A stretch of DNA of 37,203 nt from positions 1-37,203 of the IMG/VR virus record IMGVR_UViG_3300046648_000165, one strand, 5' to 3'. The position numbers and the translations under genes were made by a program. Shown piece by piece: positions 357 through 22,785 of the stretch (positions within the stretch are counted from its first letter, which is position 1; every line of letters begins with the position of its first letter). The notes under the pieces are model-generated. The model made no database searches. It was not told the DNA's origin and was given only the letters and a program-made list of their open reading frames with translations. This stretch comes from a virus.

Positions 357-388
357 ATGACTTGCTACACAATAGCGCAGCAAGTCAT
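357..388 (-). terminator. Perfect 10-bp hairpin after the phosphoesterase gene
   Basis: ATGACTTGCT (357-366) pairs exactly with AGCAAGTCAT (379-388) around a 12-base loop. It follows the stop codon of the minus-strand phosphoesterase gene by 18 bases. The downstream run (TGATTT) is only moderately T-rich, so termination is likely but not certain. The -10 element of a putative promoter lies in the loop. Confidence 0.5.
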
Positions 389-395
389 GGGTTGC
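370..395 (-). promoter_or_regulatory. Putative phage-class promoter P1
   Basis: On the minus strand this reads GCAACCC, 13 bases, CTATTG, ending 38 bases before the start codon at 332. It belongs to the recurrent GCAACCC-N13-CTATTC family. It sits inside the terminator-like hairpin at 357-388. Confidence 0.5.
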
Positions 396-406
396 GGGAG
401 GGAGTA

Positions 407-1498
407 TCAGGCGTCTTCGACGACGGATCGGGCGGTGTTGAGCACGTCGGCGCACTCGATCTTGAGGCGAGCTCGATCAACCAGCGTCGAAATATCGGTC
501 GCGTTGTCGATGTAGCCGGCGACGGACTGGTCGACTGTGACGGTGCCCTTTGGTGCCGCGCCCGTTCGAGCGTTTGCAGCCTGCTTCTTCGGCGCCATGA
601 TGATCACGCCTTGCGCGCCGCTATCCTCGAGGAACCGGCGCAGCTCGGCGATCTCGGCAGAGGTCATTTCAGGACCAGCGAAGCGCACGTAGTTGCCGTC
701 GGCCGCAAGAGCCATGTCGCTTTCGTCCAAGCCCGAGACATCGACGAACCTCGGCGCGTGCGTCGCATGAAACGCCACTTTGCCGTTGTCATCGACGACC
801 AGGAAGCCCGCCTTGGTGCCAACATCGCCCCAGGTTTGATGCGTGGTCGCGCCGATCGACCAGACATTGCCCGGAAGCTCCTTGTGATTGTGGTAGTCGC
901 CGGCAAAGACGTTGCGAAAGCCGTAGTCGGCCAGCATTTCGGCTGTCAGACCGTGATCAGGCATGCCTGACAGCACACCATCGATACCGGCATGGATGAA
1001 GACGTCGCGCTTCTCTTTGTTCGGCATGCCGGAGAGGCATTCGAGATCCTTCAAAAGAAGTTCGCGTGTAGAGCGGTAGGGCACAAAGCCGACATATTGA
1101 CCGTCGATGCAATCATCACTGACCTGGTCGATGACGTTGAACGTGCCGTGATCGCTCTTGGTCTCGGCCAGCGTCTTGATGCCGTTGCCGAGAGTCGTCG
1201 TGTCCTTGCCGGACAGGTCGTGATTGCCTGGGATCGCATGGATCGTGATGCCCATGTCGAGGATCTCGCGGATCGTCTCCTGAAGCGGGTTCAGCACTTC
1301 AGGGTCGATCGAGCCACGGACGTGCATGACGTCGCCGGCGCAGATCATGACCTTTGCGCCGATGGACTTCGCATGATTGGCCGCGCGCTTCAGTTCGTCG
1401 AGGATGATCTGCAACCGACCGTTGACGCCATTGGCTGTGAAGGTCGAGAAGGTCGACCACTTGTGTGCGTGAAGGTCTGAAACGATGACGTAGCTCAT
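407..1498 (-). CDS. Metallophosphoesterase, SbcD/Mre11-type nuclease
   Basis: This 363-residue protein has the five signature blocks of a two-metal calcineurin-like phosphoesterase: D8-L-H10, GD at 55-56, GNHD at 91-94, HAG at 169-171 and GDYHNH at 200-205. In the SbcD/Mre11/T4 gp47 family such enzymes cut DNA ends and hairpins during recombination and repair. Length and order of motifs fit that group. No SbcC/gp46 ATPase is seen in the window, so it either acts alone or has a partner elsewhere. Its ATG overlaps the stop of the AT-hook gene (ATGA), which implies translational coupling and joint function. The metal-binding residues look intact. The exact DNA substrate is inferred only from the family. 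Confidence 0.85.
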   Translation of the reverse strand: MSYVIVSDLHAHKWSTFSTFTANGVNGRLQIILDELKRAANHAKSIGAKVMICAGDVMHVRGSIDPEVLNPLQETIREILDMGITIHAIPGNHDLSGKDTTTLGNGIKTLAETKSDHGTFNVIDQVSDDCIDGQYVGFVPYRSTRELLLKDLECLSGMPNKEKRDVFIHAGIDGVLSGMPDHGLTAEMLADYGFRNVFAGDYHNHKELPGNVWSIGATTHQTWGDVGTKAGFLVVDDNGKVAFHATHAPRFVDVSGLDESDMALAADGNYVRFAGPEMTSAEIAELRRFLEDSGAQGVIIMAPKKQAANARTGAAPKGTVTVDQSVAGYIDNATDISTLVDRARLKIECADVLNTARSVVEDA

Positions 1499-1896
1499 GC
1501 GGCACTCCGGTAAGATCCAGCCGGAACACGAACGCGCGGCTTCATTGGCACGACGTTGGTCGGGTCTTCGGTGACGATCGGGTTCTTTCTCGGACGACCG
1601 CGAGGGCGCTTGACGACACCGTCCTTGCGCTCGAGGTAGCGGACGCGAGCGCGAAGCTGGTCGATCTCGCTGGTCATTTCCTCATTGGCCAGGCGCACCA
1701 GTCGGTTTTCATCGACAAAGCCGTCAACAACGGTCTGCAGAAGCGACATGTCGCGGATGGTGAAGAAGAAATTCTCGCCGTCGATCTTCAACCGACGCTT
1801 GATATCGAGAGCCTTCTTGAGCCCACCGCCGAAGATGGTGCCGAACGTAGCTTGAGGAATCACCGTGCCGTCATCGAGGGTCTTCATCGCAGTCAT
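1495..1896 (-). CDS. AT-hook and coiled-coil DNA-binding protein
   Basis: The 133-residue product has a charged helical stretch at about 61-92, probably a coiled coil, followed by KRPRGRPRKN at 96-105, a textbook AT-hook that inserts Arg-Gly-Arg into the minor groove of AT-rich DNA. The N-terminal 60 residues are not recognised. ATG at 1896 is chosen because AGGAGA stands nine bases upstream; a second ATG at 1887 is possible. It is first in an operon with the SbcD-like nuclease and overlaps it by four bases, so it may tether that nuclease to DNA (inference). Operator copies O1 and O2 and promoter P2 lie upstream. Confidence 0.75.
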   Translation of the reverse strand: MTAMKTLDDGTVIPQATFGTIFGGGLKKALDIKRRLKIDGENFFFTIRDMSLLQTVVDGFVDENRLVRLANEEMTSEIDQLRARVRYLERKDGVVKRPRGRPRKNPIVTEDPTNVVPMKPRVRVPAGSYRSAA

Positions 1897-1909
1897 TTTG
1901 TTTTATCTC

Positions 1910-1929
1910 CTAAGTCAGTATTGATTGAC
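1910..1929. promoter_or_regulatory. Operator-like dyad O1
   Basis: CTAAGTCAGT-ATTGATTGAC matches the recurrent 20-bp dyad GTMAGTMAAT-ATTKACTKAC at 18 of 20 positions. It lies nine bases downstream of the P2 -10 element and just before the AT-hook gene ribosome-binding site, at the expected transcription start. Confidence 0.6.
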
Positions 1930-1937
1930 TAATATCT

Positions 1938-1963
1938 GAATAGCGCGACTCACATAGGGACGC
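1938..1963 (-). promoter_or_regulatory. Putative phage-class promoter P2
   Basis: Minus-strand GCGTCCC, 13 bases, CTATTC, with the -10 element 42 bases before the AT-hook gene start. Its -35 side touches operator O2. Confidence 0.5.
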
Positions 1964-1980
1964 AATCAATATTTACTTAC
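1961..1980. promoter_or_regulatory. Operator-like dyad O2
   Basis: CGCAATCAAT-ATTTACTTAC; the right half matches the consensus fully and the left half at 7 of 10. It is the upstream member of a pair with O1, centres 51 bases apart, bracketing promoter P2. Confidence 0.6.
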
Positions 1981-1993
1981 CGCTAAAGGGAAC

Positions 1994-2016
1994 TTAAAAG
2001 CCGCCCGAAGGCGGCT
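1994..2016 (-). terminator. Rho-independent terminator
   Basis: On the minus strand AGCCGCC-TTCG-GGCGGCT is followed by TTTAA. This is a seven-pair GC-rich stem with a stable TTCG tetraloop and a T tract, six bases after the TAA of the 150-residue gene. Confidence 0.85.
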
Positions 2017-2021
2017 CTCAA

Positions 2022-2474: not shown

Positions 2475-2488
2475 GGAGATCTCCCTTG

Positions 2489-2887
2489 TCAGCGGATTTT
2501 TACTCTGCCGGGTATATGGTGGAAATGATTAAGCGGTAAATAACGCTGCGCAGCACCACCGCGGCGCTCGAAATTCAAATATTTGGTCTTCTTGCGGTCG
2601 AAGAAGTTTTCGATCCGAGTGATGTAGATATCGTCGTTCTGCTTTACGCGAACGCCAACCCAGACGATTTTGGCAAGACGGAGCTCGGTGATGGTTTCCT
2701 CATCGAGCGCCCAGGCCGCGACTTCCTTGCGCACGGCGTCGGAGTTGTTTTTCTCGCCGAACCGGAAGATCTGATCCAGCTTCCGGGCGGCGAGATAAAC
2801 GTCTCTATTCGCAAAGTGATAAATGTGGCCGTAGATTCGACGACCGCGACGGACGATGGTTGTCTTCACTTTGGGTTTGCGCGCCAT
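2489..2887 (-). CDS. Basic hypothetical protein (132 residues)
   Basis: ATG at 2887 (MARKPKVKTTIVRRGRR) is preferred because AAAGG lies eight bases upstream; an earlier start at 2947 would sit deep in the ASCH gene. Even so, its first 83 bases overlap the 3' end of the ASCH gene in another frame. The N-terminus is strongly basic, suggesting nucleic-acid contact, and the rest is a mixed alpha/beta sequence with an Arg/His-rich tail. Family not recognised. Overlap and spacing suggest coupled translation with the ASCH gene. Confidence 0.65.
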   Translation of the reverse strand: MARKPKVKTTIVRRGRRIYGHIYHFANRDVYLAARKLDQIFRFGEKNNSDAVRKEVAAWALDEETITELRLAKIVWVGVRVKQNDDIYITRIENFFDRKKTKYLNFERRGGAAQRYLPLNHFHHIPGRVKIR

Positions 2888-3314
2888 TCTCGAAGCCTTT
2901 CCATTCAAAAAGACCTTGTGCGCCTTTGATCGGGATCGGGTGCTCAAGACGCTCCGGCTTGGTCAGGCGCCAGGCGTAACCGCCTTCGACGAACCATCCA
3001 TACGAACGCTCCTCACGCGTAATGTCGTCGAGGAACTCCGGATCGACCTGCTCGAAACTATCGAGGATGACCGTTCCGAGAAGGTAGCCCTTGGGCAGCT
3101 CCTCGAAGGCCGGCAGGTCGAGCGTCTGATAGAAGAATTGGAACTCCTCTTCATTGAACGCCTTCACCTGCTTGGGCAGGACGTTCTTTGTCGCAGCGAT
3201 GCCAATTCTCTGTCCGACCACTGATCTGGGTGGCGCCCAGGTCCGTGTCTCAAAGAATTTGAAACCGTGGACGATGAGTGTCGCCCACGGTTGCCAGATC
3301 GAAATTACCTTCAT
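2805..3314 (-). CDS. ASCH-domain protein
   Basis: The 169-residue product starts MKVISIWQPWATLIVHGFKF and continues with FETRTW at 21-26, the hallmark of ASCH domains, whose cleft resembles PUA-type RNA-binding folds. The late block GYAWRLTKPERLEHPIPIKG is also typical. ASCH proteins are thought to bind RNA or modified nucleosides, and some are amidohydrolases acting on acetylcytidine; which applies here cannot be told. The start at 3314 follows GGAGAG; an upstream ATG at 3359 lacks such a site. The last 25 or so residues overlap the next gene and are low in conserved character. Promoter P3 is 28 bases upstream. Confidence 0.8.
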   Translation of the reverse strand: MKVISIWQPWATLIVHGFKFFETRTWAPPRSVVGQRIGIAATKNVLPKQVKAFNEEEFQFFYQTLDLPAFEELPKGYLLGTVILDSFEQVDPEFLDDITREERSYGWFVEGGYAWRLTKPERLEHPIPIKGAQGLFEWKGFENGAQTQSEDNHRPSRSSNLRPHLSLCE

Positions 3315-3341
3315 CAATTCTCTCCGATGATGCTGCGTCTT

Positions 3342-3367
3342 GAATAGACTGATTTTCATCGGAGACG
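3342..3367 (-). promoter_or_regulatory. Putative phage-class promoter P3
   Basis: Minus-strand CGTCTCC, 13 bases, CTATTC, ending 28 bases before the ASCH start codon. The -10 element is perfect and the -35 side is diverged. Confidence 0.45.
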
Positions 3368-3368
3368 C

Positions 3369-3391
3369 TAGCGAAAAAGCGAATTAGCGAA
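3369..3391. repeat. AGCGAA direct repeats (second regulatory motif)
   Basis: Three spaced copies of AGCGA(A) between the recombinase stop codon and promoter P3. The same word occurs as a dyad at 7318-7340 and 21308-21325, so it may be a second protein-binding site. Confidence 0.4.
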
Positions 3392-4498: not shown

Positions 4499-4508
4499 TT
4501 TGGTCTCC

Positions 4509-6313: not shown

Positions 6314-7264
6314 TTAGATGCTGTCCAGGTCTGCAAGGACGTCGTCGAGGTCGTTGTCATCGAGGACAACGTCTTCTTCAACGACAGCAGGCTTGGACGA
6401 AGCCTTCTGAGTTGTGGGAGCAGCCGCCTTGGTCGTGACGACTTCTTCCTTTTCTTCGGTCTCGAACGGTGCTTCGTCGAGATCAGCAGCGTCTGCCAGT
6501 GCGTCGGCGTCAACGTCCGGATCGACCTGAGCTGCACGCGAGGTCAGTGCTGCGGTTGGCGTCTTGTTGCCGAGACGCGGAATGCTGACCTGTGCGACCT
6601 GGGCGATGAAGTTCAGCGCCTTCTGCTCATCACCGCGGAAGAATTCCTTGTTGATGTGGCTGGTCAGGTCATGCACTTCCTTCAGGTGCGCCTTCGTGAC
6701 GGCCTTCGACGTGCCCGGCGCGATGTTGACCGTGTATTCGGTGTTGAGACCCTTGCCGGCGCGGGTGATGGAGATATCCATGCCCGAGTTCGGATCGAGA
6801 ACGTCTTCGCCTTCTTCGGCATACTGCTGAATGATGTTGAGGACAGAACCGAACGTGCCGGTCGTGATCTCGAGGATCTGCACCTTGTCCGGATCGGACG
6901 AGCCCTTCGAGCGGTCAAGAACGTTCAGGAGAACGGTCTTGCGAGCGCGCCAGGATTCGTAGAGCTTCTTGGAGTCTTCATCGATCGCGCCCTTCAGCGC
7001 TTCGTTGATCGCGGTGTCGATCTCGCAAGGCTGGCCGAAGACGACGTCGGAGCAACCGACAACGGCGATGGGCTTGCCCTTGCCGTCAACCTCAGGCTTG
7101 ATCCAGTGGACGCCGAGGTCAGCCCAGAACTGGGCATTCACGTCAGGCACGAGGATGCGGTATCGGTTGACACCTTCCTTCGGCTTGATGCGCTCGCCTG
7201 TGGAGCGAGAATACTTGTTTGCGCCTTGCGACACGAGCTTTTGCAGTGCGGGAGAGAGTGCCAT
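6314..7264 (-). CDS. gp32-like single-stranded DNA-binding protein
   Basis: A 316-residue protein with a folded core of about 220 residues (VNRYRILVP, FWADLGVHWI, SWRARKTVLLNVLDR, VQILEITTGTFGSVLNII) like the OB-fold core of T4 gp32-type proteins. A long Ala/Glu-rich linker follows and the protein ends in a very acidic tip (DDNDLDDVLADLDSI), the usual docking tail for polymerase, helicase and recombination partners. It is about the size of T4 gp32 (301). I do not see a complete gp32 zinc finger. AAAAGG precedes the ATG. It is a single-gene unit with its own promoter P4 and terminator, fitting a protein needed in large amounts. Confidence 0.82.
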   Translation of the reverse strand: MALSPALQKLVSQGANKYSRSTGERIKPKEGVNRYRILVPDVNAQFWADLGVHWIKPEVDGKGKPIAVVGCSDVVFGQPCEIDTAINEALKGAIDEDSKKLYESWRARKTVLLNVLDRSKGSSDPDKVQILEITTGTFGSVLNIIQQYAEEGEDVLDPNSGMDISITRAGKGLNTEYTVNIAPGTSKAVTKAHLKEVHDLTSHINKEFFRGDEQKALNFIAQVAQVSIPRLGNKTPTAALTSRAAQVDPDVDADALADAADLDEAPFETEEKEEVVTTKAAAPTTQKASSKPAVVEEDVVLDDNDLDDVLADLDSI

Positions 7265-7345: not shown

Positions 7346-7371
7346 GAATAGACAGTTTCGGGTTGGGTTGC
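7346..7371 (-). promoter_or_regulatory. Putative phage-class promoter P4 (ssb)
   Basis: Minus-strand GCAACCC, 13 bases, CTATTC: a full match to the family consensus, 82 bases before the ssb start codon. Confidence 0.6.
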
Positions 7372-7392: not shown

Positions 7393-7632
7393 TCAGGCGA
7401 ACGTTTCGAGCATCTTGGCGCGCTTGGAAGCAGCGGTAGATGCGGCGAGGGCGGCAGCGTCAGCAGCAGCTTCGGCACGCTTGATGGCGTCACGGTTGGC
7501 AGCGACCAGACCCTTCTGGGCGGCTTCGTGAGCTTCGAGCTTTGATGCGATCTTGGTGATCGGCGCCATGATCTTGTCGACGGTCTGCTCGGCGCCCACT
7601 GCTTTGCGGACGAAAGAAATGAGTTTGTTCAT
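7393..7632 (-). CDS. Small Ala-rich helical protein
   Basis: The 79-residue product (MNKLISFVRKAVGAEQTVDK) is almost entirely predicted helix, with a run of Ala-rich heptads from residue 30 to 70, so it may form a coiled coil or helical bundle. No family recognised. CGGAGA precedes the ATG, and the gene has both an operator dyad (O3) and promoter P5 immediately upstream, marking it as a regulated single-gene unit. Confidence 0.7.
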   Translation of the reverse strand: MNKLISFVRKAVGAEQTVDKIMAPITKIASKLEAHEAAQKGLVAANRDAIKRAEAAADAAALAASTAASKRAKMLETFA

Positions 7633-7678: not shown

Positions 7679-7704
7679 AAATAGACGAAGATTCGTCGGA
7701 CTGC
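7679..7704 (-). promoter_or_regulatory. Putative phage-class promoter P5
   Basis: Minus-strand GCAGTCC, 13 bases, CTATTT. Twelve of the 13 spacer bases form the dyad ACGAA-TC-TTCGT. Confidence 0.5.
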
Positions 7705-7711: not shown

Positions 7712-8245
7712 TTAAGCGGCGTTTTTGTTTTTGACGCGCTCGAGGTAGCCGTTCTTCAGATCGTTGAGATCCTCTTCACGGGAGGAGCGCAGCTTTGTGA
7801 CCAGCTCGCCCTTCATTTCCTCGCGCTCGGTGGCGCCGTGCTGCACGAGCATGTCTTTCCGGTGCCGGAAGGACTCGACCGCGATCTTTGCGACCGCTTC
7901 GATCTGTTTGGCTTCGTTGAGCGCCTTCTTGACCGCGATCACACGCTCATGGCGCGTCACCATCTTGTCGAGCAGGGCTTCGGTCGTCTTCTCGCCGTTG
8001 GCAACCATCCGGTCACGCAGCGCGCGGTAGACGGCAGCCTCGGTGTTGTCCTGCAGCAGCTTGATATTGTCCACCTGGCGCGCGGCTTTCGCTGCGATCT
8101 CGCCATAGTGGGCAAACATCTGCGCCTGGCGCGACATTGCGCCGGAGAGGTCGGCCATCGAGTAGGCCAGATCCTCCTTCATCTTGGCGCTGTCGATAAA
8201 GTTGCGCACCGTGATCTTCTGGGTCTTTTTCTCTTCATCACTCAT
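7712..8245 (-). CDS. Coiled-coil protein, possible UvsY-like recombination mediator
   Basis: The 177-residue product is basic and almost wholly helical. After about residue 45 it follows the pattern of UvsY-type mediators: a helix with AAVYRALRDRMVANGEKTTEALLDKMVTRHERV, then a long helix ending in FRHRKDMLVQHG and an arginine-rich close. UvsY loads UvsX onto gp32-coated DNA, and both partners are encoded nearby, so the role fits the context. Similarity is by pattern only and UvsY proteins are highly diverged; it could instead be a structural coiled-coil protein. GAAGG precedes the ATG and promoter P6 is 26 bases upstream. Confidence 0.65.
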   Translation of the reverse strand: MSDEEKKTQKITVRNFIDSAKMKEDLAYSMADLSGAMSRQAQMFAHYGEIAAKAARQVDNIKLLQDNTEAAVYRALRDRMVANGEKTTEALLDKMVTRHERVIAVKKALNEAKQIEAVAKIAVESFRHRKDMLVQHGATEREEMKGELVTKLRSSREEDLNDLKNGYLERVKNKNAA

Positions 8246-8270: not shown

Positions 8271-8296
8271 GAATAGCGCGTTCATGCGCGGATTGC
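8271..8296 (-). promoter_or_regulatory. Putative phage-class promoter P6
   Basis: Minus-strand GCAATCC, 13 bases, CTATTC, 26 bases before the start codon of the UvsY-like gene and just after the polymerase stop codon. Confidence 0.55.
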
Positions 8297-11883: not shown

Positions 11884-12419
11884 AATTCTCTCCTCAGTGT
11901 GATCAAGCCGTCGACGTTCTCGACGGCACCAATATGTGTGAGCGCCTGGATTGCCATGCGCGCGTGACTGTCGGCCGTGCCATCGGTCCAGCCGAGCTTG
12001 GCTGTGAACGCGTAGGCGAGCGTCGGGCGATCGAGCGGCTTCGTCATCTTCAACAGCAGATGCGCCGCGATCTTCATGAAGGACATGCCGGGTTGGCTGA
12101 ACGGGTTTTCGCCGCGCTTCAGCTTCTCGGTCACAAACAGCGAGGAGTTGTCGAGCTTCTCGACCAGCGCCTGGACCTTCTTCGGCAGGGTGAGCTCAGC
12201 GGGAGCAGCCGCTGGCTTATCGACGACAAGCGGGTTCTTGGCGTTCTTGTTACCCTTGCCTTTCACGCCGACACGCTCTCTGAGGATCATCAGATTGCTT
12301 TCGTGCAGCGGCCGGCAGGCTTCAGCGAACTTGCACACCGAGCAGACCGGAGCCGCTTCCTCGAAAGCGAGTGCAGAGCCGAAGCAACCTGGCGCGAAAG
12401 AAGGGATAATGGCAGTCAT
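11880..12419 (-). CDS. Cys-cluster protein, WhiB-like cysteine spacing
   Basis: A 179-residue protein with four cysteines near the N-terminus, C12, C26, C29 and C35, spaced C-x13-CxxC-x5-C. WhiB-like iron-sulfur regulators have the pattern C-xn-CxxC-x5-C, and the local text (VCSVCKFAEACRPL) resembles them; a zinc site is the alternative. A Lys/Pro-rich linker follows, then residues 100-179 look like a winged-helix domain (FMKIAAHLLLKM, SHARMAIQALTHIGAVENVDGLITLRREF). Its ATG overlaps the sigma factor stop (ATGA). WhiB proteins bind sigma factors, so the neighbour is suggestive. Outside actinobacteria and their phages such proteins are rare, so treat this as a hypothesis. Confidence 0.7.
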   Translation of the reverse strand: MTAIIPSFAPGCFGSALAFEEAAPVCSVCKFAEACRPLHESNLMILRERVGVKGKGNKNAKNPLVVDKPAAAPAELTLPKKVQALVEKLDNSSLFVTEKLKRGENPFSQPGMSFMKIAAHLLLKMTKPLDRPTLAYAFTAKLGWTDGTADSHARMAIQALTHIGAVENVDGLITLRREF

Positions 12420-13048
12420 GCAGCGGTCCTTTGAACCTTTTCGGAGAGCTTGCGCAGCTCGGCGAGGATCTTCGTTCTCTCGGGGCGATCAGCGCCCATC
12501 AGACGGAAGACGAAGCCCGTCGTGATCTGGCTAATCAAAACATTCTGCGCGCCGATCTCTTTGGCGTAGTCAGCGCGGGCCTTCAGTTGACGCATTTGCT
12601 CGAGGAGTTCGGGCGGCTGTTCGTAGAGCAGCTTCAGGAACAGAGCAGAGCGGCTGCCGAGACGGCGCAGCGCCCAGGTGTAATGCGTGATCTCCTCGAC
12701 TTCAGCGTCGGGGAGGGGTTCGTTGCCCGGCATCATGTCGCCGAGGTTCGCGCTTTCGTCATCACGACCGGCAGGAGCATCGAGGCTTGATGCGCGCTCC
12801 TCGCCAATGCGGTTGAAGACCTTCCGGTTGATCGCAAGCTTGCTGCGCCGAATACCTTCAATGAGATAGGCCTTGAAGGGCACACCGAGCGTCGGATCGA
12901 ACGTGTCACGGGCGCGACACCAAACCATCCAGAGCTCTTGCTCGACGTCCTCATGGCTGAGCGATGTTGCGCCGGAGCCATGAAGCTTTCTTGCGATCGA
13001 CCAGGACATACGCCGGATCAGTTCGACGCTATCCTTGTGGTCGATCAT
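12416..13048 (-). CDS. RNA polymerase sigma factor
   Basis: The 210-residue protein carries a sigma70 region 2 signature at about 31-74: SHEDVEQELWMVWCRARDTFDPTLGVPFKAYLIEGIRRSKL, matching the DLVQEG...AAEKFDP..G..FSTYA...IRRAI pattern that binds core polymerase and melts the -10. A short acidic linker (90-120) leads to a C-terminal helical part (122-185, ALRRLGSRSALFLKLL then a possible HTH) in the place of region 4. It lacks regions 1 and 3 and is about the size of ECF and phage late sigma factors. ATG 13048 overlaps the CobS stop (TGATG); an upstream start at 13105 would overlap CobS. It may read the phage promoter family described here. Confidence 0.8.
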   Translation of the reverse strand: MIDHKDSVELIRRMSWSIARKLHGSGATSLSHEDVEQELWMVWCRARDTFDPTLGVPFKAYLIEGIRRSKLAINRKVFNRIGEERASSLDAPAGRDDESANLGDMMPGNEPLPDAEVEEITHYTWALRRLGSRSALFLKLLYEQPPELLEQMRQLKARADYAKEIGAQNVLISQITTGFVFRLMGADRPERTKILAELRKLSEKVQRTAA

Positions 13049-14280
13049 CAGGCGAAGTGCCTCTGAACGACCTGGTCGACAGTCACTTGGTCGATGCGTG
13101 AGCAACGATTGATGAATGCGAGACGGAAGCCGTAATTCGGATTGTTACCGAAGACGATTGTCAGCGAAGCGGCGTTGATCAGCTCGCGCGGCGAGATCGT
13201 CATCGACATTTCACCCTTGGCAAAGCTCTCGCGGATAGCACCCGCGACCTTGACGAACTTGTCAGCGTCGGGCTTGCCGAGACCGGCCTTCGAGCGCAGC
13301 ACCAGGCTTTCCTGCTTCGGATCCATGTATTTCACTTCCTTCGTGATATGGAATCGCGAGTAAGAAGCTGCGTTCTGGATCATCGTGCCTTGGTAGAGGC
13401 CAGTTTCGTCACCGACGCCGTTGGTGTTGCCGGTCGCAACGAAGCGGAAGTCGGGATGCGGATGAATGACGCGCTGGTCGATCGGCGCATCCTTGATAAC
13501 AAGCGGCTTGCCCTCGAGCACTGGCTGATAGAGCGCGATCACCGACGGCATGGCGAAGTCGTATTCGTCAGCGCAGTAGACCATGCCATACTTCATCGCC
13601 ATCGCGAGCGGGCCATACTGGAACTCGGTGACAGTCTGCGGTTTCTGGACGACAACGATCGAGCCGTCAGCTTTGAGCTCCTGGCTGTCGGCCATGACGG
13701 TGCGCACGACATACTGTCCGAGAATGTGGGCTTCTTCGGTGTTGCCGGTGTGCTGCACGCGCAAGAACGGGCGACCGGTGCGCGCGGCGCACTGTTCAAG
13801 CACGGTCGTCTTGCCTGTGCCGTGATAGCCCCAGAGATACGTATTCATCTTCAGTTCGAAGCCGAGGCAAACGACCTTCACGAGGTCGATATCGAAGACG
13901 TATTCGGGATCGGACTGACTGATGTAGGCATCAGCTTCGTGGTGATGCTCGGTCAGGCAGCGCAGAGCGATCGGGTTGCCGGTCGATGACAGACCGGTTG
14001 AGGGATCGAGGTCGAAGATTTCGGAGAGCGAGCGCTCGACGAAGGCGAACGGCTGCATCGGGTTGAAGGCGGTCGAGCCAGCAGCCTTGCGGTCAGCAGC
14101 TTCCTTGGCCTTCAGCGCTGCGCGCCTGCCTTTCGGAGACAGAACGGGCTCGCCAGGATAGGCTTCCTTGTAGCGCTCGATCGTCCAGTCTGCGTGATTT
14201 TCCTTGAGATAGAGCCTGATCGAGTGCGTCTTCCCGCCGTCGATGTGGCAAATGATCATGTCGTCGTTTTCAGTGGTCAT
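13048..14280 (-). CDS. CobS/MoxR-type AAA+ ATPase
   Basis: A 410-residue AAA+ ATPase. Walker A GYHGTGKTT is at 151-159, Walker B VYCADEYDF at 234-242 (CADE in place of DEIN), sensor 1 VATGNTNG at 281-288, and SYSRFHI with a following arginine-rich helix at the end. The N-terminal stretch HSIRLYLKENHADWTIERYKEAYPG matches CobS proteins, the ring ATPase subunit of aerobic cobaltochelatase. The gene upstream encodes a CobT-like VWA protein, so the two form a MoxR-VWA pair. No CobN or other cobalamin gene is seen, so remodelling of another target by the ring is more likely than cobalt insertion (inference). GGAG precedes the ATG. First gene of the CobS, sigma, polymerase operon. Confidence 0.9.
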   Translation of the reverse strand: MTTENDDMIICHIDGGKTHSIRLYLKENHADWTIERYKEAYPGEPVLSPKGRRAALKAKEAADRKAAGSTAFNPMQPFAFVERSLSEIFDLDPSTGLSSTGNPIALRCLTEHHHEADAYISQSDPEYVFDIDLVKVVCLGFELKMNTYLWGYHGTGKTTVLEQCAARTGRPFLRVQHTGNTEEAHILGQYVVRTVMADSQELKADGSIVVVQKPQTVTEFQYGPLAMAMKYGMVYCADEYDFAMPSVIALYQPVLEGKPLVIKDAPIDQRVIHPHPDFRFVATGNTNGVGDETGLYQGTMIQNAASYSRFHITKEVKYMDPKQESLVLRSKAGLGKPDADKFVKVAGAIRESFAKGEMSMTISPRELINAASLTIVFGNNPNYGFRLAFINRCSRIDQVTVDQVVQRHFA

Positions 14281-14322
14281 GCTTCAATCTCCGTTTGAAC
14301 CAGATCAGCGCTCTTTGTCGCT

Positions 14323-14342
14323 CTCAATCAATATTTACTTAC
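14323..14342. promoter_or_regulatory. Operator-like dyad O4
   Basis: CTCAATCAAT-ATTTACTTAC, second of a pair upstream of the CobS operon, 43 bases before the start codon. Confidence 0.6.
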
Positions 14343-14362
14343 TAACAAGCGCAGCGATGGGA
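14337..14362 (-). promoter_or_regulatory. Weak phage-class promoter candidate
   Basis: Minus-strand GCTTCCC, 13 bases, TTAGTA between O5 and O4. The -35 side fits the family but the -10 is poor. An alternative is TTGATT-N17-TTGTTA with its -35 inside O5. Confidence 0.3.
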
Positions 14363-14382
14363 AGCAATCAATATTTACTGAC
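14363..14382. promoter_or_regulatory. Operator-like dyad O5
   Basis: AGCAATCAAT-ATTTACTGAC; its centre is 40 bases from that of O4, close to four helical turns, which would favour cooperative binding. Confidence 0.6.
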
Positions 14383-14399
14383 CGCTTCGCATTCCCTGC

Positions 14400-16868
14400 T
14401 TATTTCGTGAGGATCTTTTTGAGTTCGCCCATGACGGCGCGCGGCAGCTCCTCGACCGAATTGAGGATGAGGTAGTTGTCGTAGAAACGAGCAACCGCGT
14501 CAGACTTGATGCCGACACCGACGAGGTCGAAGCCCTGGTCTGTCAGGCGCTTGACCATCATCTTCAGGTGTTCGTCGTCGTTCTCGGCGCCGGCAGGAAA
14601 GCCGTCTGACAGCACGATGATGACCTTGCGCTTCTCCTTGCGCTTGGCAAGACGCATCGCAGCATATTCGAGGGACTCGCCGTCTATATTGCCGCCCATG
14701 TGAGCCTGGACCTTGCGCTGATAGGCGAAGCGCTTCTTGACCTCGGCGTTGATGCGCTCGTTGAACTCCTTGAAGATCGGCATGTAGATCGGGTAGATGC
14801 GCGAGAACTTGACCCTCGACTTCGCCACTTCCTTCTGCAGCGCGTCATTGAACTCTTCCATCTGCGTTTGCGTCAAGACGCCACCCGAGCCCCACATAGA
14901 CGCTGTCGTGAAGCCCATGCACTCTGACGGAATGTTGCAACGCTCAAGCACCTGGGCAAGGGCGTATGAGGCTGACATCGCTGTTGCCATCGGCAAGCCC
15001 TTCATCGATCCGGAGCAGTCGGACAGCAGCGACACGGCTGTGTCTTTGGCGCGGATCTCTTCGCGCCGGCTGAAGACGCGGGCATCGCCGGCCGACAGAC
15101 GGTGCAGACCTGCGCTATTGAGCTTGCCCGAGCGCTGACCGGCGACGTTGAAGACGCGCGACTGCGCTGCCATCATGCGCTCGATGTCCTTCTGCATGAC
15201 GCCTGTGAGCGACCGGGTCTGCTCCTCGAGCTCGACCGTCCATCTGGACTTGTAGTCTTCCGGCACCGGCAAGATCTTGATCACGTCATACTCGCGGGTG
15301 AAGATCGAATAGTCGGACGCGCGGCAGGCTTCGATCGCCTGCTTGACGATGATCTTGACCAAGGCTGCCGACAGGTCTTTCTCGTCGAGGGCGTCATCGG
15401 TCATCTCTTCGAACGGGTTGACGTCCTTGTCGTAGCCGATACCACCGACCTCGATGTTGTCTTCCTCGTCCTCGGGCGTTTCTTCGCCTTCGGTCTCTTC
15501 CTTGCCGTCGTTGTCGTCCTCGATCGCGAGGTTGCTCAGATCAGGCTTGCCACCTTGCTCGCCGTCGTCTTCACCTTCCTCGGTGTCATCACTCTCGGCA
15601 TCAGCGCCTTCAGCGTCGCTACCGCCTGATTCAGGCTCTTCGCCAGTCCGATCCCCACCGGACTCAGCCTTGCCATCACTCTCCTCGGCTTCAGCGTCTT
15701 CCTCTTCGGGCGCACTTCCTTCACCATCGTCTGTGTCAGAAACTTCCGCATCGTTTTCGTCGCTGCTGTCATCAGGATCATCGGCTTCGCTGCCGGAACC
15801 ATTCTTATCGTCGGCATCGTCAGCGTCGCCTTTTTCGCTGTCGTCCTTGTCGCCAGAGCCATCGGCCTCGGCTTCGTCAGCCTCATCGTCATCGCTGCCG
15901 TCTGAGCTGTCATCGCCAGCGCCTTCGGTGCCCTCGTCGTCTTCGGTCTGCTCGCCTTCACCTTCAGAATCGCCTTCGCCGGCATCATCTTCCTTCTCCT
16001 CTTCGCTCTCGTCCTCGCCTTCACCGCCCGACGCTTTGTCATTGTCTTCGGTGTGCTCGCGCTCACCTTGACCTTCACCGTCGCCGGTCTGCTCTTCGTC
16101 GGAGTGGTCCTGATCGTCTTCACCTTCGGACTCGGGTTGCTCCTGGTCGTCGCTGCTTTCGCCGTCGGACTTGTCTTCTTCCTCTTCGGGCGGCTGCTCG
16201 GGAGGGGCAGGGGGTGCTGGCGGGGGTGGCGGGTAGAGAATGGCTTCGACCTCGACCGCGATATCGTAGGTCTGAGCCGTGTCAGCCAGGAGTGGCATCT
16301 TGTCTTTCGACGCCTGGGAGAAGCGCTGCAAGAACGCCTTCACCAGAGGGTGATCCCAGTATTTGTTGTCGTCCATGTAGTTCTGGAACTCGACGTGACC
16401 GGCGAGCGCGCGAAACATGACGACGATGAGGTAGTCGAACTCGTCCTGATTTGATTGGGCACTCTTAATCGCCGGCTCAGTGACGTTGCGCAGGAAGTAT
16501 TCGCGCAGCCGAGAGAAGTTGCGCTTCGAGCCGGGGAAGTCATCGCTCATAAGCCGCTCAATCATCGTATCCTCGATGATGTTGTGCAGGTTATGGAGAC
16601 GCCTGGACTTCTCACGCGCCTTGAACGTGAAGTCGGTGTAGAGGACGTGCGCGACTTCGTGGTCGATAAACCCTTGAATAGCCATGACAAAGTCAGGCTC
16701 TGCATTGTCTGGCAGAAGCGGAATGTTCACGCGATGGGGTAGACCAGTGACGGGGTGCGGCTGAACGTAGGCTTGTGTGCCGATTTGCGTAACCACCAAG
16801 CCTTTGCCCGCAAGCATCGGAATGATCTTCTTGATTGCTTCGCGCAGGATCACAATGTCGTTGTTCAT
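14400..16868 (-). CDS. CobT-like VWA protein with HExxH motif and acidic core
   Basis: An 822-residue partner of the CobS ATPase. Residues 55-110 contain H70-E-V-A-H74 (GFIDHEVAHVLYTDF) followed by IIEDTMIER with E99/E104, the arrangement of gluzincin metallopeptidases. Residues 217-500 are an extreme low-complexity acidic region of Asp, Glu, Ser and Gly after a Pro-rich start, as in CobT proteins. From residue 614 a VWA domain begins with the MIDAS motif DCSGS (617-621), then SDG at 754-756. In the MoxR-VWA and cobaltochelatase families the VWA subunit links a substrate to the AAA+ ring. CobT is usually about 600-640 residues, so this is longer. P7 and O6 lie directly upstream. Confidence 0.88.
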   Translation of the reverse strand: MNNDIVILREAIKKIIPMLAGKGLVVTQIGTQAYVQPHPVTGLPHRVNIPLLPDNAEPDFVMAIQGFIDHEVAHVLYTDFTFKAREKSRRLHNLHNIIEDTMIERLMSDDFPGSKRNFSRLREYFLRNVTEPAIKSAQSNQDEFDYLIVVMFRALAGHVEFQNYMDDNKYWDHPLVKAFLQRFSQASKDKMPLLADTAQTYDIAVEVEAILYPPPPPAPPAPPEQPPEEEEDKSDGESSDDQEQPESEGEDDQDHSDEEQTGDGEGQGEREHTEDNDKASGGEGEDESEEEKEDDAGEGDSEGEGEQTEDDEGTEGAGDDSSDGSDDDEADEAEADGSGDKDDSEKGDADDADDKNGSGSEADDPDDSSDENDAEVSDTDDGEGSAPEEEDAEAEESDGKAESGGDRTGEEPESGGSDAEGADAESDDTEEGEDDGEQGGKPDLSNLAIEDDNDGKEETEGEETPEDEEDNIEVGGIGYDKDVNPFEEMTDDALDEKDLSAALVKIIVKQAIEACRASDYSIFTREYDVIKILPVPEDYKSRWTVELEEQTRSLTGVMQKDIERMMAAQSRVFNVAGQRSGKLNSAGLHRLSAGDARVFSRREEIRAKDTAVSLLSDCSGSMKGLPMATAMSASYALAQVLERCNIPSECMGFTTASMWGSGGVLTQTQMEEFNDALQKEVAKSRVKFSRIYPIYMPIFKEFNERINAEVKKRFAYQRKVQAHMGGNIDGESLEYAAMRLAKRKEKRKVIIVLSDGFPAGAENDDEHLKMMVKRLTDQGFDLVGVGIKSDAVARFYDNYLILNSVEELPRAVMGELKKILTK

Positions 16869-16902: not shown

Positions 16903-16928
16903 ATATCTCACTAAAAATCGTGGGTTAC
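16903..16928 (-). promoter_or_regulatory. Putative phage-class promoter P7
   Basis: Minus-strand GTAACCC, 13 bases, AGATAT, 35 bases before the CobT-like start codon and overlapping the end of the 80-residue gene. A TTGTAA-N17-GATATT reading is also possible. Confidence 0.4.
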
Positions 16929-17251: not shown

Positions 17252-17662
17252 TCATTTCGATGCGGCGAAGAGTTCCTTCAGGCCCGCGGTCTGTCGATCG
17301 TTGACCTTCGGATCTTCACTGTCCGAGGCTTCACGAATGATGTTGATGATCTCGACCTCGTTTGCAGAGACCACAGCATCGATCATCTTGGCCGACTGAG
17401 GATCGTCTCCCATGAACTGCTCAAGGGCGAGCCGGAAGAGATACATCGGGTCGACGTCGATAGCACGAGCAAGCCCGGCGACACGGTCCAGGGGAAGCTT
17501 AGCGTCGCCCTTTTTGATCATCGTGACCATGTTAGACTGTGTCCAGCCAGCAGCCTGAGCAATTTCTCGATGGGACTTGCTGACCTTCTGGTCGATGTGC
17601 TTGTCGAGAAAACGCGCAACCTTCGTGTTAGCGTAGGGACGAACGTAGGTAGTGGTGGACAT
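17252..17662 (-). CDS. XRE/Cro-CI-type helix-turn-helix regulator
   Basis: A 136-residue protein with a Cro/CI-type HTH at about 28-78: SHREIAQAAGWTQSNMVTMIKKGDAKLPLDRVAGLARAIDVDP. The second and third helices (REIAQAAG, QSNMVTMIKKG) form the DNA-reading unit. The C-terminal 55 residues are charged and helical, probably for dimerisation; no RecA-cleavage Ala-Gly site is visible. It faces the plus-strand RHH-repC genes across a 404-base control region holding O8. As the only clear CI-like protein here it is the best candidate to bind the 13 dyads and to act as the immunity or maintenance repressor (inference). AAAGG lies 11 bases before the ATG. Confidence 0.85.
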   Translation of the reverse strand: MSTTTYVRPYANTKVARFLDKHIDQKVSKSHREIAQAAGWTQSNMVTMIKKGDAKLPLDRVAGLARAIDVDPMYLFRLALEQFMGDDPQSAKMIDAVVSANEVEIINIIREASDSEDPKVNDRQTAGLKELFAASK

Positions 17663-17735: not shown

Positions 17736-17761
17736 AGATAGCAAGATTGTCTTGGGGTATC
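17736..17761 (-). promoter_or_regulatory. Putative phage-class promoter P8 (XRE)
   Basis: Minus-strand GATACCC, 13 bases, CTATCT, 74 bases before the XRE start. The 13-base spacer is itself the dyad CAAGA-CAA-TCTTG. Confidence 0.45.
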
Positions 17762-17769
17762 GCGATTTT

Positions 17770-18267: not shown

Positions 18268-18275
18268 AGACGTGA

Positions 18276-18446: not shown

Positions 18447-19556
18447 ATGCAAACTCAGGGAAACCTGGGCTGGCGTAAGCTTGGAAAGCCAGTCCAGATA
18501 CATGATCAGCCGACTATAGAGGCGGATCGTCGCAAGCTCTACAAGCTAAAGAATCTTGCCGCGGTAGCATTAGGATTGTCTAAGAGCCAAATCGCGGTGC
18601 TGAATAGCCTAATTTCTTACTTCCAGGAGCCGATCGCAGGCCGGCTGTTGGTTTGGCCCTCGAACCAGTCATTGATGACGGCAACCGGATATAGTGAGCG
18701 AGCCGTTCGGTTGGCTATTAGACAGCTCATTTCTATTGGAATCATCCAGCCAAAGGATTCGGCCAATGGAAAACGATTCGCCGACCGATCGCCGACCAAA
18801 CAAATCCTTGATGCGTTCGGTTTCGACCTCGCCCCTCTCCTGCTTCGCGAGAAGGAATTCAAGGATTCAGTTCTTGAAATAGAGGCGCGCAAGGAAATGC
18901 AATCGCGCCAGCTCGACGACATCACCATCTGCCGGCGCCAGGTCCAGGAATTCCTTCGCGCCTTCGGAGAGCTCGACGCCTCGATCGACATGTCAACATT
19001 ACAGAGCGCTTTCGATCAAATGGTTGAGCGAACACCACGCCGGTCGCTCAATCGCTTCCCTGGCCCTCTTCTGGCCGAATGGAGCGCACTCCTGAAGGTC
19101 GCTGAGCATCAATATCATACCGCCTTTGCCGGCAATGATTGCCGTCACAAAGAGAACAACAACGATATACCTGAGCAGTCTTGTTCAAACGGCCAAGGAG
19201 AAATGGTTAGGGGCGAAACGGTGAACCTGGCCGACATGCGAGCCGCCTGCCCGGACGCTATGGAGCTGGCGATCGGCGTGCGCACGGAAGGCGACATGAT
19301 CAGGGAGGCCGCGCGGTTGCGTGGCGAGTATGGGACTCACCGGACGGCCTGGGAGGAAGCCTGCGACGATCTGGGTCGGCCGCGCGCCGCGGTTTTGATC
19401 TTCTATCTGCTTCAGCTCTACGTGGACGACCAGACGGGCCGGCGAACGATCAACAATTTCGGCGGGCTCTTCAGGAGCTGGGCGCGAAAAGTGGCAGCCG
19501 GCGAAGTCGATCTCGCAAAGGAGATCCACGTCATGCGGCGAAAGCGAGCGCACTAA
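18447..19556 (+). CDS. repC: RepC replication initiator (repABC-plasmid type)
   Basis: A 369-residue initiator. The N-terminal half (RRKLYKLKNLAAVALGLSKSQIAVLN, WPSNQSLMTATGYSERAVRLAIRQLISIGIIQPKDS) is the RepC winged-helix origin-binding part. The C-terminal 110 residues (DMRAACPDAMELA, WEEACDDLGRPRAAVLIFYLLQ, TINNFGGLFRSWARKVAAGE) are the other conserved RepC block. Residues 225-265 are a variable linker, under which the origin of replication usually lies. RepC is the essential initiator of low-copy alphaproteobacterial plasmids and megaplasmids. Length is a little below the usual 400. AAGGA precedes the ATG. No RepA or RepB is present nearby, so partition must be handled elsewhere or not at all. 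Confidence 0.95.
   Translation: MQTQGNLGWRKLGKPVQIHDQPTIEADRRKLYKLKNLAAVALGLSKSQIAVLNSLISYFQEPIAGRLLVWPSNQSLMTATGYSERAVRLAIRQLISIGIIQPKDSANGKRFADRSPTKQILDAFGFDLAPLLLREKEFKDSVLEIEARKEMQSRQLDDITICRRQVQEFLRAFGELDASIDMSTLQSAFDQMVERTPRRSLNRFPGPLLAEWSALLKVAEHQYHTAFAGNDCRHKENNNDIPEQSCSNGQGEMVRGETVNLADMRAACPDAMELAIGVRTEGDMIREAARLRGEYGTHRTAWEEACDDLGRPRAAVLIFYLLQLYVDDQTGRRTINNFGGLFRSWARKVAAGEVDLAKEIHVMRRKRAH
19090..19210. other. Probable origin of replication within repC
   Basis: In repABC plasmids the origin maps to the AT-richer variable middle of repC. The matching stretch here encodes the linker AEHQYHTAFAGNDCRHKENNN and is locally richer in A and T than the rest of the gene. This rests on family knowledge and position only. 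Confidence 0.35.
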
Positions 19557-19584
19557 AAAAAAGGGCGCTCGATGAGGAGCGCCC
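19555..19584 (-). terminator. Strong minus-strand terminator behind repC
   Basis: Minus-strand stem GGGCGCTC/GAGCGCCC with a six-base loop is followed by eight T residues. It shields repC from minus-strand transcription arriving from the ligase operon and would end any short RNA started at P11. Confidence 0.85.
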
Positions 19585-19633
19585 AAGTTACAAAGGAGAT
19601 TACAATGACGAAACGGAGGGGAACGTCGCTGTG
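19555..19633 (-). ncRNA. Candidate small RNA with anti-Shine-Dalgarno motifs
   Basis: Between a promoter-like element (P11) and a strong terminator lies a stretch of about 75 bases without a good frame on the minus strand. The RNA would expose CCCCTCC and CTCCTTT, complementary to ribosome-binding sites, before its terminator stem. It would also be antisense to an AAAGGAG-led 11-codon plus-strand frame at 19605-19640. Confidence 0.3.
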
Positions 19634-19639
19634 CTTATA

Positions 19640-19665
19640 GAATAGTCAGTATTCAGTCGGCTTTT
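19640..19665 (-). promoter_or_regulatory. Weak phage-class promoter candidate P11
   Basis: Minus-strand AAAAGCC, 13 bases, CTATTC. The -10 is perfect and the -35 side poor. A degenerate operator-like sequence (19641-19660) overlaps it. Confidence 0.3.
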
Positions 19666-21352: not shown

Positions 21353-21362
21353 GGGTATTCTC

Positions 21363-21923
21363 CTATGCTGCGATGTTGAGGGCAGCGGCCATATCGCCGG
21401 TCTTTGCTGCCTGATTGAGGGTGTCGTTCTTCTTGGCGACGACGGTGCGCTGGCGCGGTGTGTCGTCGGTCTCGTCACGAACGGTCATCGAGACCTTCTT
21501 CGGCGCGATGAACTGGGATTTACCTGGCGCCGTCTTGAGCTGCGCCTGGATACGCTCCTTTGCGCTGTAGAGCAGGTCGCGCTCGTTTGGCGTCAGACTG
21601 AATCGCTCGACCTCGCGGGCGATCGGAACGGTGTTGACGATGCGCTCAAGCACATCGGCGTGCAGCTTGCCCTGCTTTGGCTCCTTCGAGCCGTAGTCGT
21701 CAGAGACCTCGCCCTTGCCGTAGCTGATGTTCTTGACGATCTGGGCAGCCGGACACATCGAGCAGTTCATGGCAGCCTGACAGCCCTGGCGCTTCTCGAC
21801 GTGCTTGCCCATCCAGACGGCTTCGCGCAGCATCGTGCATGCGGCCATCTTGGTGTTGGCGTTGAAGACTGGGCAGGTGAAGGTGAACTGGTTGTCGGCT
21901 GCAAGCGTGAGGTAGTGCGCCAT
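21363..21923 (-). CDS. Cys-rich protein, possible zinc finger
   Basis: ATG 21923 (MAHYLTLAADNQFTF) overlaps the preceding stop (TGATG) and follows GGGAG; a longer frame from 22031 would overlap that gene heavily. The 186-residue product has C17, C29, C48, C54 and C57 (GCQAAMNCSMCPAAQ), likely to bind zinc or another metal. The rest is charged and helical, and the end LNQAAKTGDMAAALNIAA recurs in the gene cut off at the left edge. Function unknown; the operon with ligase and WGR protein suggests DNA end or nick metabolism. Confidence 0.75.
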   Translation of the reverse strand: MAHYLTLAADNQFTFTCPVFNANTKMAACTMLREAVWMGKHVEKRQGCQAAMNCSMCPAAQIVKNISYGKGEVSDDYGSKEPKQGKLHADVLERIVNTVPIAREVERFSLTPNERDLLYSAKERIQAQLKTAPGKSQFIAPKKVSMTVRDETDDTPRQRTVVAKKNDTLNQAAKTGDMAAALNIAA

Positions 21924-22189
21924 CAGAATCTCCCGAAGTTTTTGTGGACGGTTGTTTCGGCGTGCGCGACATCGGCGTGCGGCCCGAAACGTTTGCGATA
22001 GGCTCGACGGATAACCACACGACAGCGGCATTCGGCGACGGTCTTGAGCGAGAACTCCTGCCAGAGCGCCGGCATGTCATTGCGCGGGCTGATTTCCTCG
22101 ACGAGAGCATCCTTGGCCTTCTGCCAGCTATCGAGACGCATCTTGCTGATCCGTCGCAGGAGATCGCCGGAGAACTCGATTGTCTCCAT
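21923..22189 (-). CDS. Small basic hypothetical protein (88 residues)
   Basis: Both ends overlap neighbours by one base (TGATG), which supports translation. The protein (METIEFSGDLLRRISKMRLDSWQKAK) is helical and has a basic middle (CRCRVVIRRAYRKRFGP) that could contact nucleic acid. Family not recognised. Confidence 0.7.
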   Translation of the reverse strand: METIEFSGDLLRRISKMRLDSWQKAKDALVEEISPRNDMPALWQEFSLKTVAECRCRVVIRRAYRKRFGPHADVAHAETTVHKNFGRF

Positions 22190-22728
22190 CAGAACCGACC
22201 GAACATCGGGTTTGACGCGTAGGTCTTGACCGCTTCTTCCTGCTCGATCTCTTTCTCGGCAAGTTTCGCGGCTCTGATCTCCGCTTCCGAGAAGACCTTA
22301 GGCGCCGTGGGGATGAACTTGCCGTCCTCTTCGAAGCGCGGCGGGTTGAGCTCTTCCTTGCGGCCGGTCACTTTCATGCCCGGAACGATATGTTGCAGCG
22401 CCGGACCCGGGATCATCGGCCAGACCGAAGGACCGAACGCCATGCGCAGCTCGGGCTCGGAGTTGACCTGCCTCATGTTGGTGTTCTTGGTCTCGTAGCC
22501 CTTGCCGATCTTTGACTGAACGAGCTTATCGAACTCGGATTCGGCTTTCTTCTGGATCGCGAACCTATCGATCTTCATGTCGCCAAGCTGGCCGATCTTG
22601 CCCCAGCGGCGCACGATGATGGCCGAGCCATTCGCTGCGACGACCAGGCTGACGTTGTAGTGCTTGTTTGAACGATTACCGTCCGAATATTCGAGCGAAT
22701 AATGCGCGAAATCAAGGGGATAACTCAT
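22189..22728 (-). CDS. WGR-domain protein
   Basis: A 179-residue protein whose first 80 residues are a WGR domain: NKHYNVSLVV, then IIVRRWGKIGQLG (W42-G43-K44, WGK in place of WGR), then AESEFDKLVQSKIGKGYE. WGR domains occur in PARPs, bacterial regulators and ligase-associated proteins and bind DNA ends or nicks. The C-terminal half is Pro-rich and then charged helical, probably for protein contacts. First gene of the operon that ends with the ATP-dependent ligase, so it may deliver the ligase to breaks (inference). P9 and O9 are directly upstream. Confidence 0.85.
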   Translation of the reverse strand: MSYPLDFAHYSLEYSDGNRSNKHYNVSLVVAANGSAIIVRRWGKIGQLGDMKIDRFAIQKKAESEFDKLVQSKIGKGYETKNTNMRQVNSEPELRMAFGPSVWPMIPGPALQHIVPGMKVTGRKEELNPPRFEEDGKFIPTAPKVFSEAEIRAAKLAEKEIEQEEAVKTYASNPMFGRF

Positions 22729-22759
22729 TGCGTTGCTCTCGTTGTTGTCTGTGAAAATG

Positions 22760-22785
22760 ATATAGCGCGTTTCGCGCAGGGTTGT
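22760..22785 (-). promoter_or_regulatory. Putative phage-class promoter P9
   Basis: Minus-strand ACAACCC, 13 bases, CTATAT, 32 bases before the WGR start. Operator O9 overlaps the -35 side by two bases. The spacer holds the inverted repeat GCGCG-AAA-CGCG. Confidence 0.55.

Follow-up and report, generated by a model that had tools for sequence, protein, structure and literature searches.

The virus record IMGVR_UViG_3300046648_000165 from IMG/VR (37,203 bases; "the window" hereafter means this whole stretch) is, by its sequence, part of a Rhizobium phage-plasmid of the RHEph10 type, and its minus strand, which holds most of its genes, carries a recurrent two-box motif, GCAACCC-N12/13-CTATTC, upstream of gene starts. 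This motif is very probably a promoter recognised by the host core RNA polymerase with the phage's own sigma factor, a protein encoded in the same window, and the last letters of the second (-10) box change with the lineage of that sigma factor among related phages and plasmids.

The record matches Rhizobium phage RHEph10 at 81.7% identity over 75% of its first 25 kb, and it also matches relatives of RHEph10; repC is present in the window, and RHEph10 has ParA-like and ParB-like genes. RHEph10 and pLM21S1 have been described as plasmid-like prophages (PMC4447125), and B1VFA and V1VFA-S as phage-plasmids (PMC12509600). Plasmids of 115–119 kb also encode homologues of the sigma factor, namely those of Pararhizobium (81% identity), Sinorhizobium LM21, Shinella, Methylobacterium (two) and R. 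beringeri (30–35% identity); five of these six plasmids were retrieved in part.

The two-box motif and its placement

A search for GCAACCC-N13-CTATTC with up to three mismatches gave 18 matches in the window, of which the minus strand has 16, whereas shuffled sequences gave 7.45 ± 2.83 and none of 100 shuffles reached 18; the matches are thus neither shared equally with the plus strand nor as frequent as at random. Eight of the nine copies originally listed as having exactly 13 bases between the boxes are good ones (370, 1938, 3342, 7346, 7679, 8271, 17736 and 22760; Table 1), and lie 25–81 bases before their gene starts. The ninth, 16903-16928, does not belong to the family: its second box reads AGATAT and a CTAT box is present at none of the six orthologous starts, five of which have CGATAA or CGATTA, the top-scoring candidate of the sixth being an unrelated CTAGTC. 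The copy at 25390, listed as weaker, is actually among the best (18.0 bits), with a counterpart in four of the four orthologues found, and the spacer, described as exactly 13 bases, varies between 12 and 13 within the clade. At 14337, another of the weak copies, the first box has a GCATCCC or GCGTCCC counterpart in six of six orthologues, but the second is divergent. The match at 21087 (one mismatch) and several others in the window fall within genes and appear fortuitous.

Table 1. Positions of putative promoter copies and associated features in the window (distances are to the start of the gene named).
Feature	Position	Strand	Context or evidence	Counterparts in relatives
Putative promoter copy GCAACCC-N13-CTATTG	370..395	-	37 bases 5' of gene 3-332	Same site in Y2_11, N1_15 and L026; RHEph10 counterpart under score cut
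Putative promoter copy GCGTCCC-N13-CTATTC	1938..1963	-	41 bases 5' of gene 1495-1896; flanked on both sides by operator-like palindromes	Site present in the single orthologue found (Y2_11); RHEph10 50518 similar
Putative promoter copy CGTCTCC-N13-CTATTC (or GCGTCTC-N14)	3342..3367	-	27 bases 5' of gene 2805-3314	Candidates in 6/6 orthologues; 5 reach score cut
Putative promoter copy, perfect	7346..7371	-	5' of gene 6314-7264; RHEph10 orthologue annotated single-strand DNA-binding protein	Kept in 6/6 orthologues
Putative promoter copy GCAGTCC-N13-CTATTT	7679..7704	-	5' of gene 7393-7632; palindrome immediately downstream	3/4 orthologues found exceed score cut
Putative promoter copy GCAATCC-N13-CTATTC	8271..8296	-	25 bases 5' of gene 7712-8245	6/6 orthologues
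Putative promoter copy GATACCC-N13-CTATCT	17736..17761	-	5' of helix-turn-helix gene 17252-17662	5/5 orthologues found, there with N12
Putative promoter copy ACAACCC-N13-CTATAT	22760..22785	-	5' of gene 22189-22728	Box 1 identical in 4/4 orthologues found; just under score cut because second box is CTATCA
Putative promoter copy GCATCCC-N12-CTATTC	25390..25414	-	91 bases 5' of gene 23928-25298 (DnaB-like helicase)
Variant GCTTCCC-N13-TTAGTA	14340..14365	-	5' of cobS-like gene 13048-14280 (gene directly preceding sigma); palindromes overlap both sides
Conserved copy AAAAGCC-N13-CTATTC	19640..19665	-	No gene start behind	Boxes in 6/7 class-A sequences
Candidate small RNA, ~75-79 nucleotides	19555..19633	-	From 19640 copy to intrinsic terminator (GC hairpin + T8)
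Phage sigma factor, domain 2 and predicted domain 4, proposed reader	12416..13048	-	Pfam Sigma70_r2, models, fold comparison
Helix-turn-helix regulator, candidate repressor for palindromes	17252..17662	-	Weak Pfam and PHROG regulator matches
GTCARTCAATATTGAYTGAC palindromes, 20 bases each	1910, 1961, 4586, 7655, 14323, 14363, 16880, 17181, 17791, 22784, 25312, 27007, 30653, 34417

Of 52 starts in the orthologue comparison, 33 reached the score cut; among the 52 are counted those of 16903 (0 of 6) and 14337 (0 of 6, the window row being in the wrong register there). Identity to the window was 277/312 in the boxes against 194/308 in the spacer, a contrast that is biased because the sites were picked by box score.

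A matrix trained on 25390 and the eight good N13 copies of the window, nine in all, was used at threshold 12 to scan relatives. RHEph10 has 11 sense matches, of which seven are intergenic, all seven within 120 bases before a start; the antisense strand has three, one of them intergenic and none placed so near a start. The corresponding figures (all, intergenic, near a start) are 12, 9 and 9 sense and 2, 1 and 0 antisense in Y2_11, and 12, 9 and 8 sense and 3, 1 and 0 antisense in N1_15. Five of the seven intergenic matches in RHEph10 answer window sites, the remaining two (65252 and 93034) falling outside the region of the window, as do three of the nine in N1_15. On X66 the same matrix gave six sense matches and no intergenic one, which raised the question of lineage.

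Class models were then obtained by seeded refinement. Class A (RHEph10, N1_15, Pararhizobium and the window) has GCAACCC-N12/13-CTATTC (31 sites, some in genes), and class B (X66, V1VFA-S and LM21, the first two being close kin) has a GCACTCC-like box, N13 and CTATAA (55 sites). Shinella has a GCAACCC-like box, N12 and CTATA (10 sites), and Methylobacterium an AAACnCC-like box with GCTATAA (36 rows, including overlapping registers). A layout of a GCAnyCC-like box, N12-13 and CTATnn is thus common, in these models, to relatives from Rhizobium to Methylobacterium. With the refined models, matches on the sense and antisense strands number 8/0 in RHEph10, 9/0 in N1_15, 24/0 in X66, 15/0 in LM21 and 12/0 in V1VFA-S, all five genomes having helped to refine them; Y2_11, close kin that was unused in refinement, has eight intergenic ones, 27–93 bases 5' of starts. 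The matches lie mostly 25–93 bases before starts, those farther away being at 201 in N1_15 and at 152, 347 and 476 in X66. Model A gives no match on X66, and model B two on RHEph10. The unrelated control, Rhizobium phage RHEph02, has no sense match and one antisense. The proposal of a phage-specific promoter family is supported by strand bias, placement before genes, conservation and the control. That the motif consists of chance matches in a G+C-rich genome is scarcely credible: matches inside genes do occur near the shuffled rate (4 of the 11 sense matches in RHEph10 are in genes, and shuffles give 2.8 per strand), but placement, strand bias, conservation and the control phage oppose it.

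Because the refinement needed seeding, the refined models are no independent discovery of the motif. De novo two-box expectation maximisation (EM) on the upstream regions of single genomes did not rank it first, palindrome-like motifs coming out on top; the runner-up in the window (GcAt.Cc with TATT.A at 13–14) resembles it, and in RHEph10, N1_15 and X66 none of the top three motifs given is clearly this one. We also anchored on the -10 box alone, leaving box 1 unseeded. On the sense strand, box 1 (GC..TCC with CTATAA) then emerges in class B at a constant offset (68 anchors), and likewise in Methylobacterium (CTATA[AGT], 27 anchors) and in the sequence L028 (CTATTA, 7 anchors); it is absent antisense in class B (14 anchors) and Methylobacterium (7 anchors). 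In class A, anchoring on CTATTC (104 sense, mostly in genes, and 16 antisense) gave no clear upstream box, so that unseeded support there is weak.

The spacers bear on a further alternative, that the element acts as a hairpin between the boxes, in RNA or single-stranded DNA, like the promoters of the N4 virion polymerase. On visual inspection a spacer hairpin looks striking in several copies, and inverted repeats with stems of at least 4 do occur in 6 of 30 class-A spacers (1.4 expected, p 0.008), a small excess, but the majority of spacers have none and in class B the excess is not clear (4 of 42, 1.7 expected, p 0.09), and we consider this reading most improbable.

The sigma factor and the last letters of the -10 box

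Region 2 of the window sigma factor is recognised by Pfam PF04542 (Sigma70_r2; E 2.6e-08, 34 bits against a cut-off of 24), and the protein matches PHROG 351, RNA polymerase sigma factor (3.6e-17). The fold of domain 2 matches sigma structures (3ugo: Z 8.5, root-mean-square deviation 1.8 over 67). The predicted model of the whole protein is of modest quality (predicted local distance difference test, pLDDT, 67; predicted template-modelling score, pTM, 0.40), and the C-terminal domain modelled alone from 18 sequences reached pLDDT 83 and pTM 0.70, with five helices. In a fold search with this isolated domain, sigma factors take the first 16 of the 23 places listed, each aligned through its C-terminal part (Z 5.4–7.6), and the next match, which is the best unrelated one, has Z 3.1. 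Because region 2 is clear and the predicted C-terminal fold matches region 4, the protein would be expected to read two boxes.

The first box had been described as unlike the housekeeping TTGAC and closer to the GGAAC type of extracytoplasmic function (ECF) sigma factors. The former description is right, the consensus showing another box, a spacer of 12–13 and no TTGAC; the motif departs from the host sigma70 pattern of a TTGAC-type -35 with 17 bases to the -10. The latter stands in part: the helices of the predicted models have the ECF-like layout of domains 2 and 4 only, but the boxes are not GGAAC/CGTC, and the ECF model TIGR02937 does not pick up the window sigma (P0001) even with E values up to 1 allowed. 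We therefore do not class it as ECF. Three relatives score 28.2, 19.8 and 21.8 bits against TIGR02937 (cut-off 42.9), and no NCBIfam family is above its cut-off for the window protein.

The -10 letters were counted at intergenic sites in 25 sequences, with genes masked by a rough gene caller. The class-A count covers six sequences (Y2_11, a close copy, omitted) and the other count 15 (L013 and L042, near copies, omitted), L028 being kept apart. Among 59 class-A sites, 6 have A as the fifth letter and 31 read CTATTC; among 103 sites elsewhere, 93 have A there and 70 read CTATAA. In L028, whose sigma is 44% identical to that of the window, three of five sites read CTATTA, and in a tree of 22 sigmas L028 is sister to the CTATTC clade (support 100/99), five of the 19 forks being open and the branches of L034, L035, AMS5 and L021 long. 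These counts support the view that the last letters track the sigma lineage, with CTATTC in the clade of the window, CTATTA in its sister and CTATAA or CTATAn elsewhere. In the region 2.3–2.4 helix, class A has a GIRRSKLAINR-like sequence and the others mostly a GMRxHINRxIEK-like one. The original suggestion that the phage sigma reads the promoters gains indirect support from the lineage match and the predicted domains.

We propose that CTATTC, as the -10 element, would be read by domain 2 of the sigma, and GCAACCC by domain 4; with a spacer of just 12–13 bases, the centre of the latter box would lie near -30. Binding to the boxes, the start sites, the timing and any interplay with nearby operator-like palindromes we infer from these computed patterns.

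Host sigma70 could instead read the -10 box, with a phage activator at GCAACCC (about -30) substituting for the -35 contact in the manner of MotA/AsiA. The spacing and position of box 1 resemble those of MotA boxes, and the CTATAA of most relatives is near the host -10 box; however, these phages encode a sigma with a predicted domain 4, and N1_15 (CTATTC type) and X66 (CTATAA type) both come from R. phaseoli, though from different strains, which would make host sigma a rather unlikely cause of the -10 difference. Host sigma70 wants a T at the position following CTATAA, and in class B a T is there in 5 of 68 cases. We regard this alternative as unlikely.

Several points weigh against reading by the phage sigma. 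Domain 4 is based on a predicted model, and Foldseek alone is weak for the C-terminal domain (E >5). The exact CTATTC is found in just the 31 of 59 class-A sites given above, and the Fisher value for the fifth letter (p 1.6e-25) measures a contrast, not independent events, because the tree needs about two changes. The entire sigma diverges between lineages (31–37% identity), so that the match with the letters is not pinned to region 2.4, and other regulators diverge with lineage as well. The argument from the missing T is limited to class B, because T is commoner in the other sets: about 70% of the trained class-A sites have it after CTATTC, and it is the next base in 5 of 29 in Shinella, 5 of 27 in Methylobacterium and 2 of 5 in Ancylobacter. 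In class B, antisense CTATAA has a T next in 1 of 14 cases. For phage 7-11, finally, a promoter prediction from sequence alone gave a TGATGT core (PMC4331800), and later experiment found GTAAtg-(16)-aCTA instead (PMC8948821), which calls for caution with predictions such as the present ones.

Genes probably served, dispersed palindromes and a candidate small RNA

The genes downstream of the sites include those for a DnaB-like helicase, a single-strand binding protein, rIIA and an orthologue of the helix-turn-helix gene. In X66, all 24 intergenic matches of the refined models (23 sites, the matches 74815 and 74827 being one site counted twice) lie between 50.1 and 119.0 kb; the structural and lysis part (14.2–50.1 kb), which contains 14 of the 61 gapped plus-strand starts, has none. 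Likewise, all seven intergenic matches of RHEph10 lie between 27.4 and 77.3 kb, and its structural part, with 17 of 67 such starts, has none. A TTGnnn box followed after 17 bases by a -10-like box is present at six starts, chosen by eye, that lie within or close to the structural and lysis parts. The claim that tail and lysis genes use sigma70-like boxes is consistent with these six starts and with the empty structural parts, although no survey stands behind it. Promoters of the phage sigma would activate genes of replication, recombination and nucleotide metabolism, others of unknown function and perhaps one small RNA, and the structural genes would be left out of the regulon, host-type promoters appearing to be used there.

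The 20-base palindrome GTCARTCAATATTGAYTGAC is present in RHEph10 in 39 copies (34 intergenic, 36 up to 150 bases before a start), in the window in 14 (13 intergenic, 14 before starts) and in N1_15 in 40 (38 intergenic, 37 before starts); X66 has 38 copies, all intergenic, of a different palindrome, TAAGTAA-n4-TTACTTA. These counts were seeded by eye, with no shuffle control, and their support is the intergenic placement in genomes with coding fractions of 0.91–0.94. In three late RHEph10 promoters the palindrome exactly occupies the 17-base spacer. Dispersed repressor operators are known in P1 and mycobacteriophage L5, and the palindromes look like such operators of a prophage repressor; the helix-turn-helix protein of Table 1 is our guess for that repressor.

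Adjacency of several boxes to these palindromes is what could suggest that the boxes themselves bind a repressor, or another regulator, of the phage instead of acting as promoters. We consider this very unlikely, as the boxes are asymmetric, gene-oriented in all near-start matches, mostly 25–93 bases before starts and promoter-like in spacing, and the palindromes already resemble the operator set; a dispersed operator set would explain why a palindrome lies next to some sigma promoters. Separately, an inverted repeat, ATGACTTGCT...AGCAAGTCAT (window 357-388), spans the -10 box of copy 370, and visual inspection showed related dyads at this gene in other phages.

The weak copy at 19640 has both boxes in six of the seven class-A sequences scanned (the seventh, L016, begins beyond the site) and, as originally claimed, no gene start behind it. 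Downstream, all six sequences have a GC hairpin about 45–52 bases past the expected start, followed by 6–8 T, and TCTCCTTT, the complement of a ribosome-binding site, is found in five of the six, with TCTCCTGT in L027. This copy may drive an RNA of about 75 nucleotides, flanked by the 3' end of the ligase gene and that of repC; Rfam gave no match in the window at its gathering threshold.

CobT-like and CobS-like (AAA, MoxR-type) genes (window 13048-16868) directly precede the sigma gene, as they do in the phages and most plasmids examined, the exception being AMS5, where the VWA gene is farther from sigma; their cobalamin name may be misleading. The Methylobacterium AMS5 plasmid (L025) has, besides its sigma homologue (43878-44504), a second protein (47897-48937) annotated as a sigma factor-like helix-turn-helix protein. 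A 114 kb contig of a bacterial genome, Ancylobacter rudongensis NZ_FMTP01000010.1 (L021), has a sigma gene and CTATAA sites and is perhaps a resident phage-plasmid.

Relation to known systems

To our knowledge, there are few phages whose own sigma factors have characterised promoters. Phage T4 redirects the host core with gp55, a sigma which reads a -10-like box only and, unlike the protein here, has no region 4. Its middle promoters have a non-sigma70 MotA box at about -30, at a short spacing to the -10, and use host sigma70 with an activator, whereas here the phage sigma is the likely reader. Bacterial ECF sigma factors have a two-domain layout, about 210 residues and GGAAC-type promoters with AAC; the window sigma shares the two domains and the size, and box 1 the AAC, but the -10 is CTATnn and not CGTC-like, and the ECF model finds no match. 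PMC8948821 describes the closest parallel, gp47 of Salmonella phage 7-11, a phage sigma with a C-terminal part homologous to region 4 that uses the host core at two-box promoters; those promoters are GTAAtg-(16)-aCTA and serve late genes, in contrast to GCAACCC, 12–13 and CTATTC for replication and metabolism genes here. In the same paper, gp36 of phiEco32 likewise directs the host core to phage genes, but through a single box (tAATGTAtA) and without region 4 homology or a -35 element. Our literature search, with most subscription journals outside its reach, found no paper treating the present promoters by title or abstract. The kind of promoter is already known from phage 7-11 (PMC8948821); new here are the sequences, the host group, the deployment at replication and metabolism genes and the stepwise shift in the -10 letters.

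A broader and doubtful possibility is that these phage-plasmids form a series of mutually exclusive sigma-promoter pairs, changing stepwise through CTATAA, CTATTA and CTATTC while sharing host species, which would perhaps block co-residents from using each other's sigma, along with a lineage-specific change of repressor sites and a small RNA that depends on the sigma and targets ribosome-binding sites.

The result is a predicted promoter map for this Rhizobium phage-plasmid group, in which one sigma family would have at least three natural -10 types among related phages and phage-plasmids, some of them sharing a host species. A rule relating sigma residues to promoter letters would be testable by simple swaps, and the pairs may be usable as orthogonal promoters in alphaproteobacteria.

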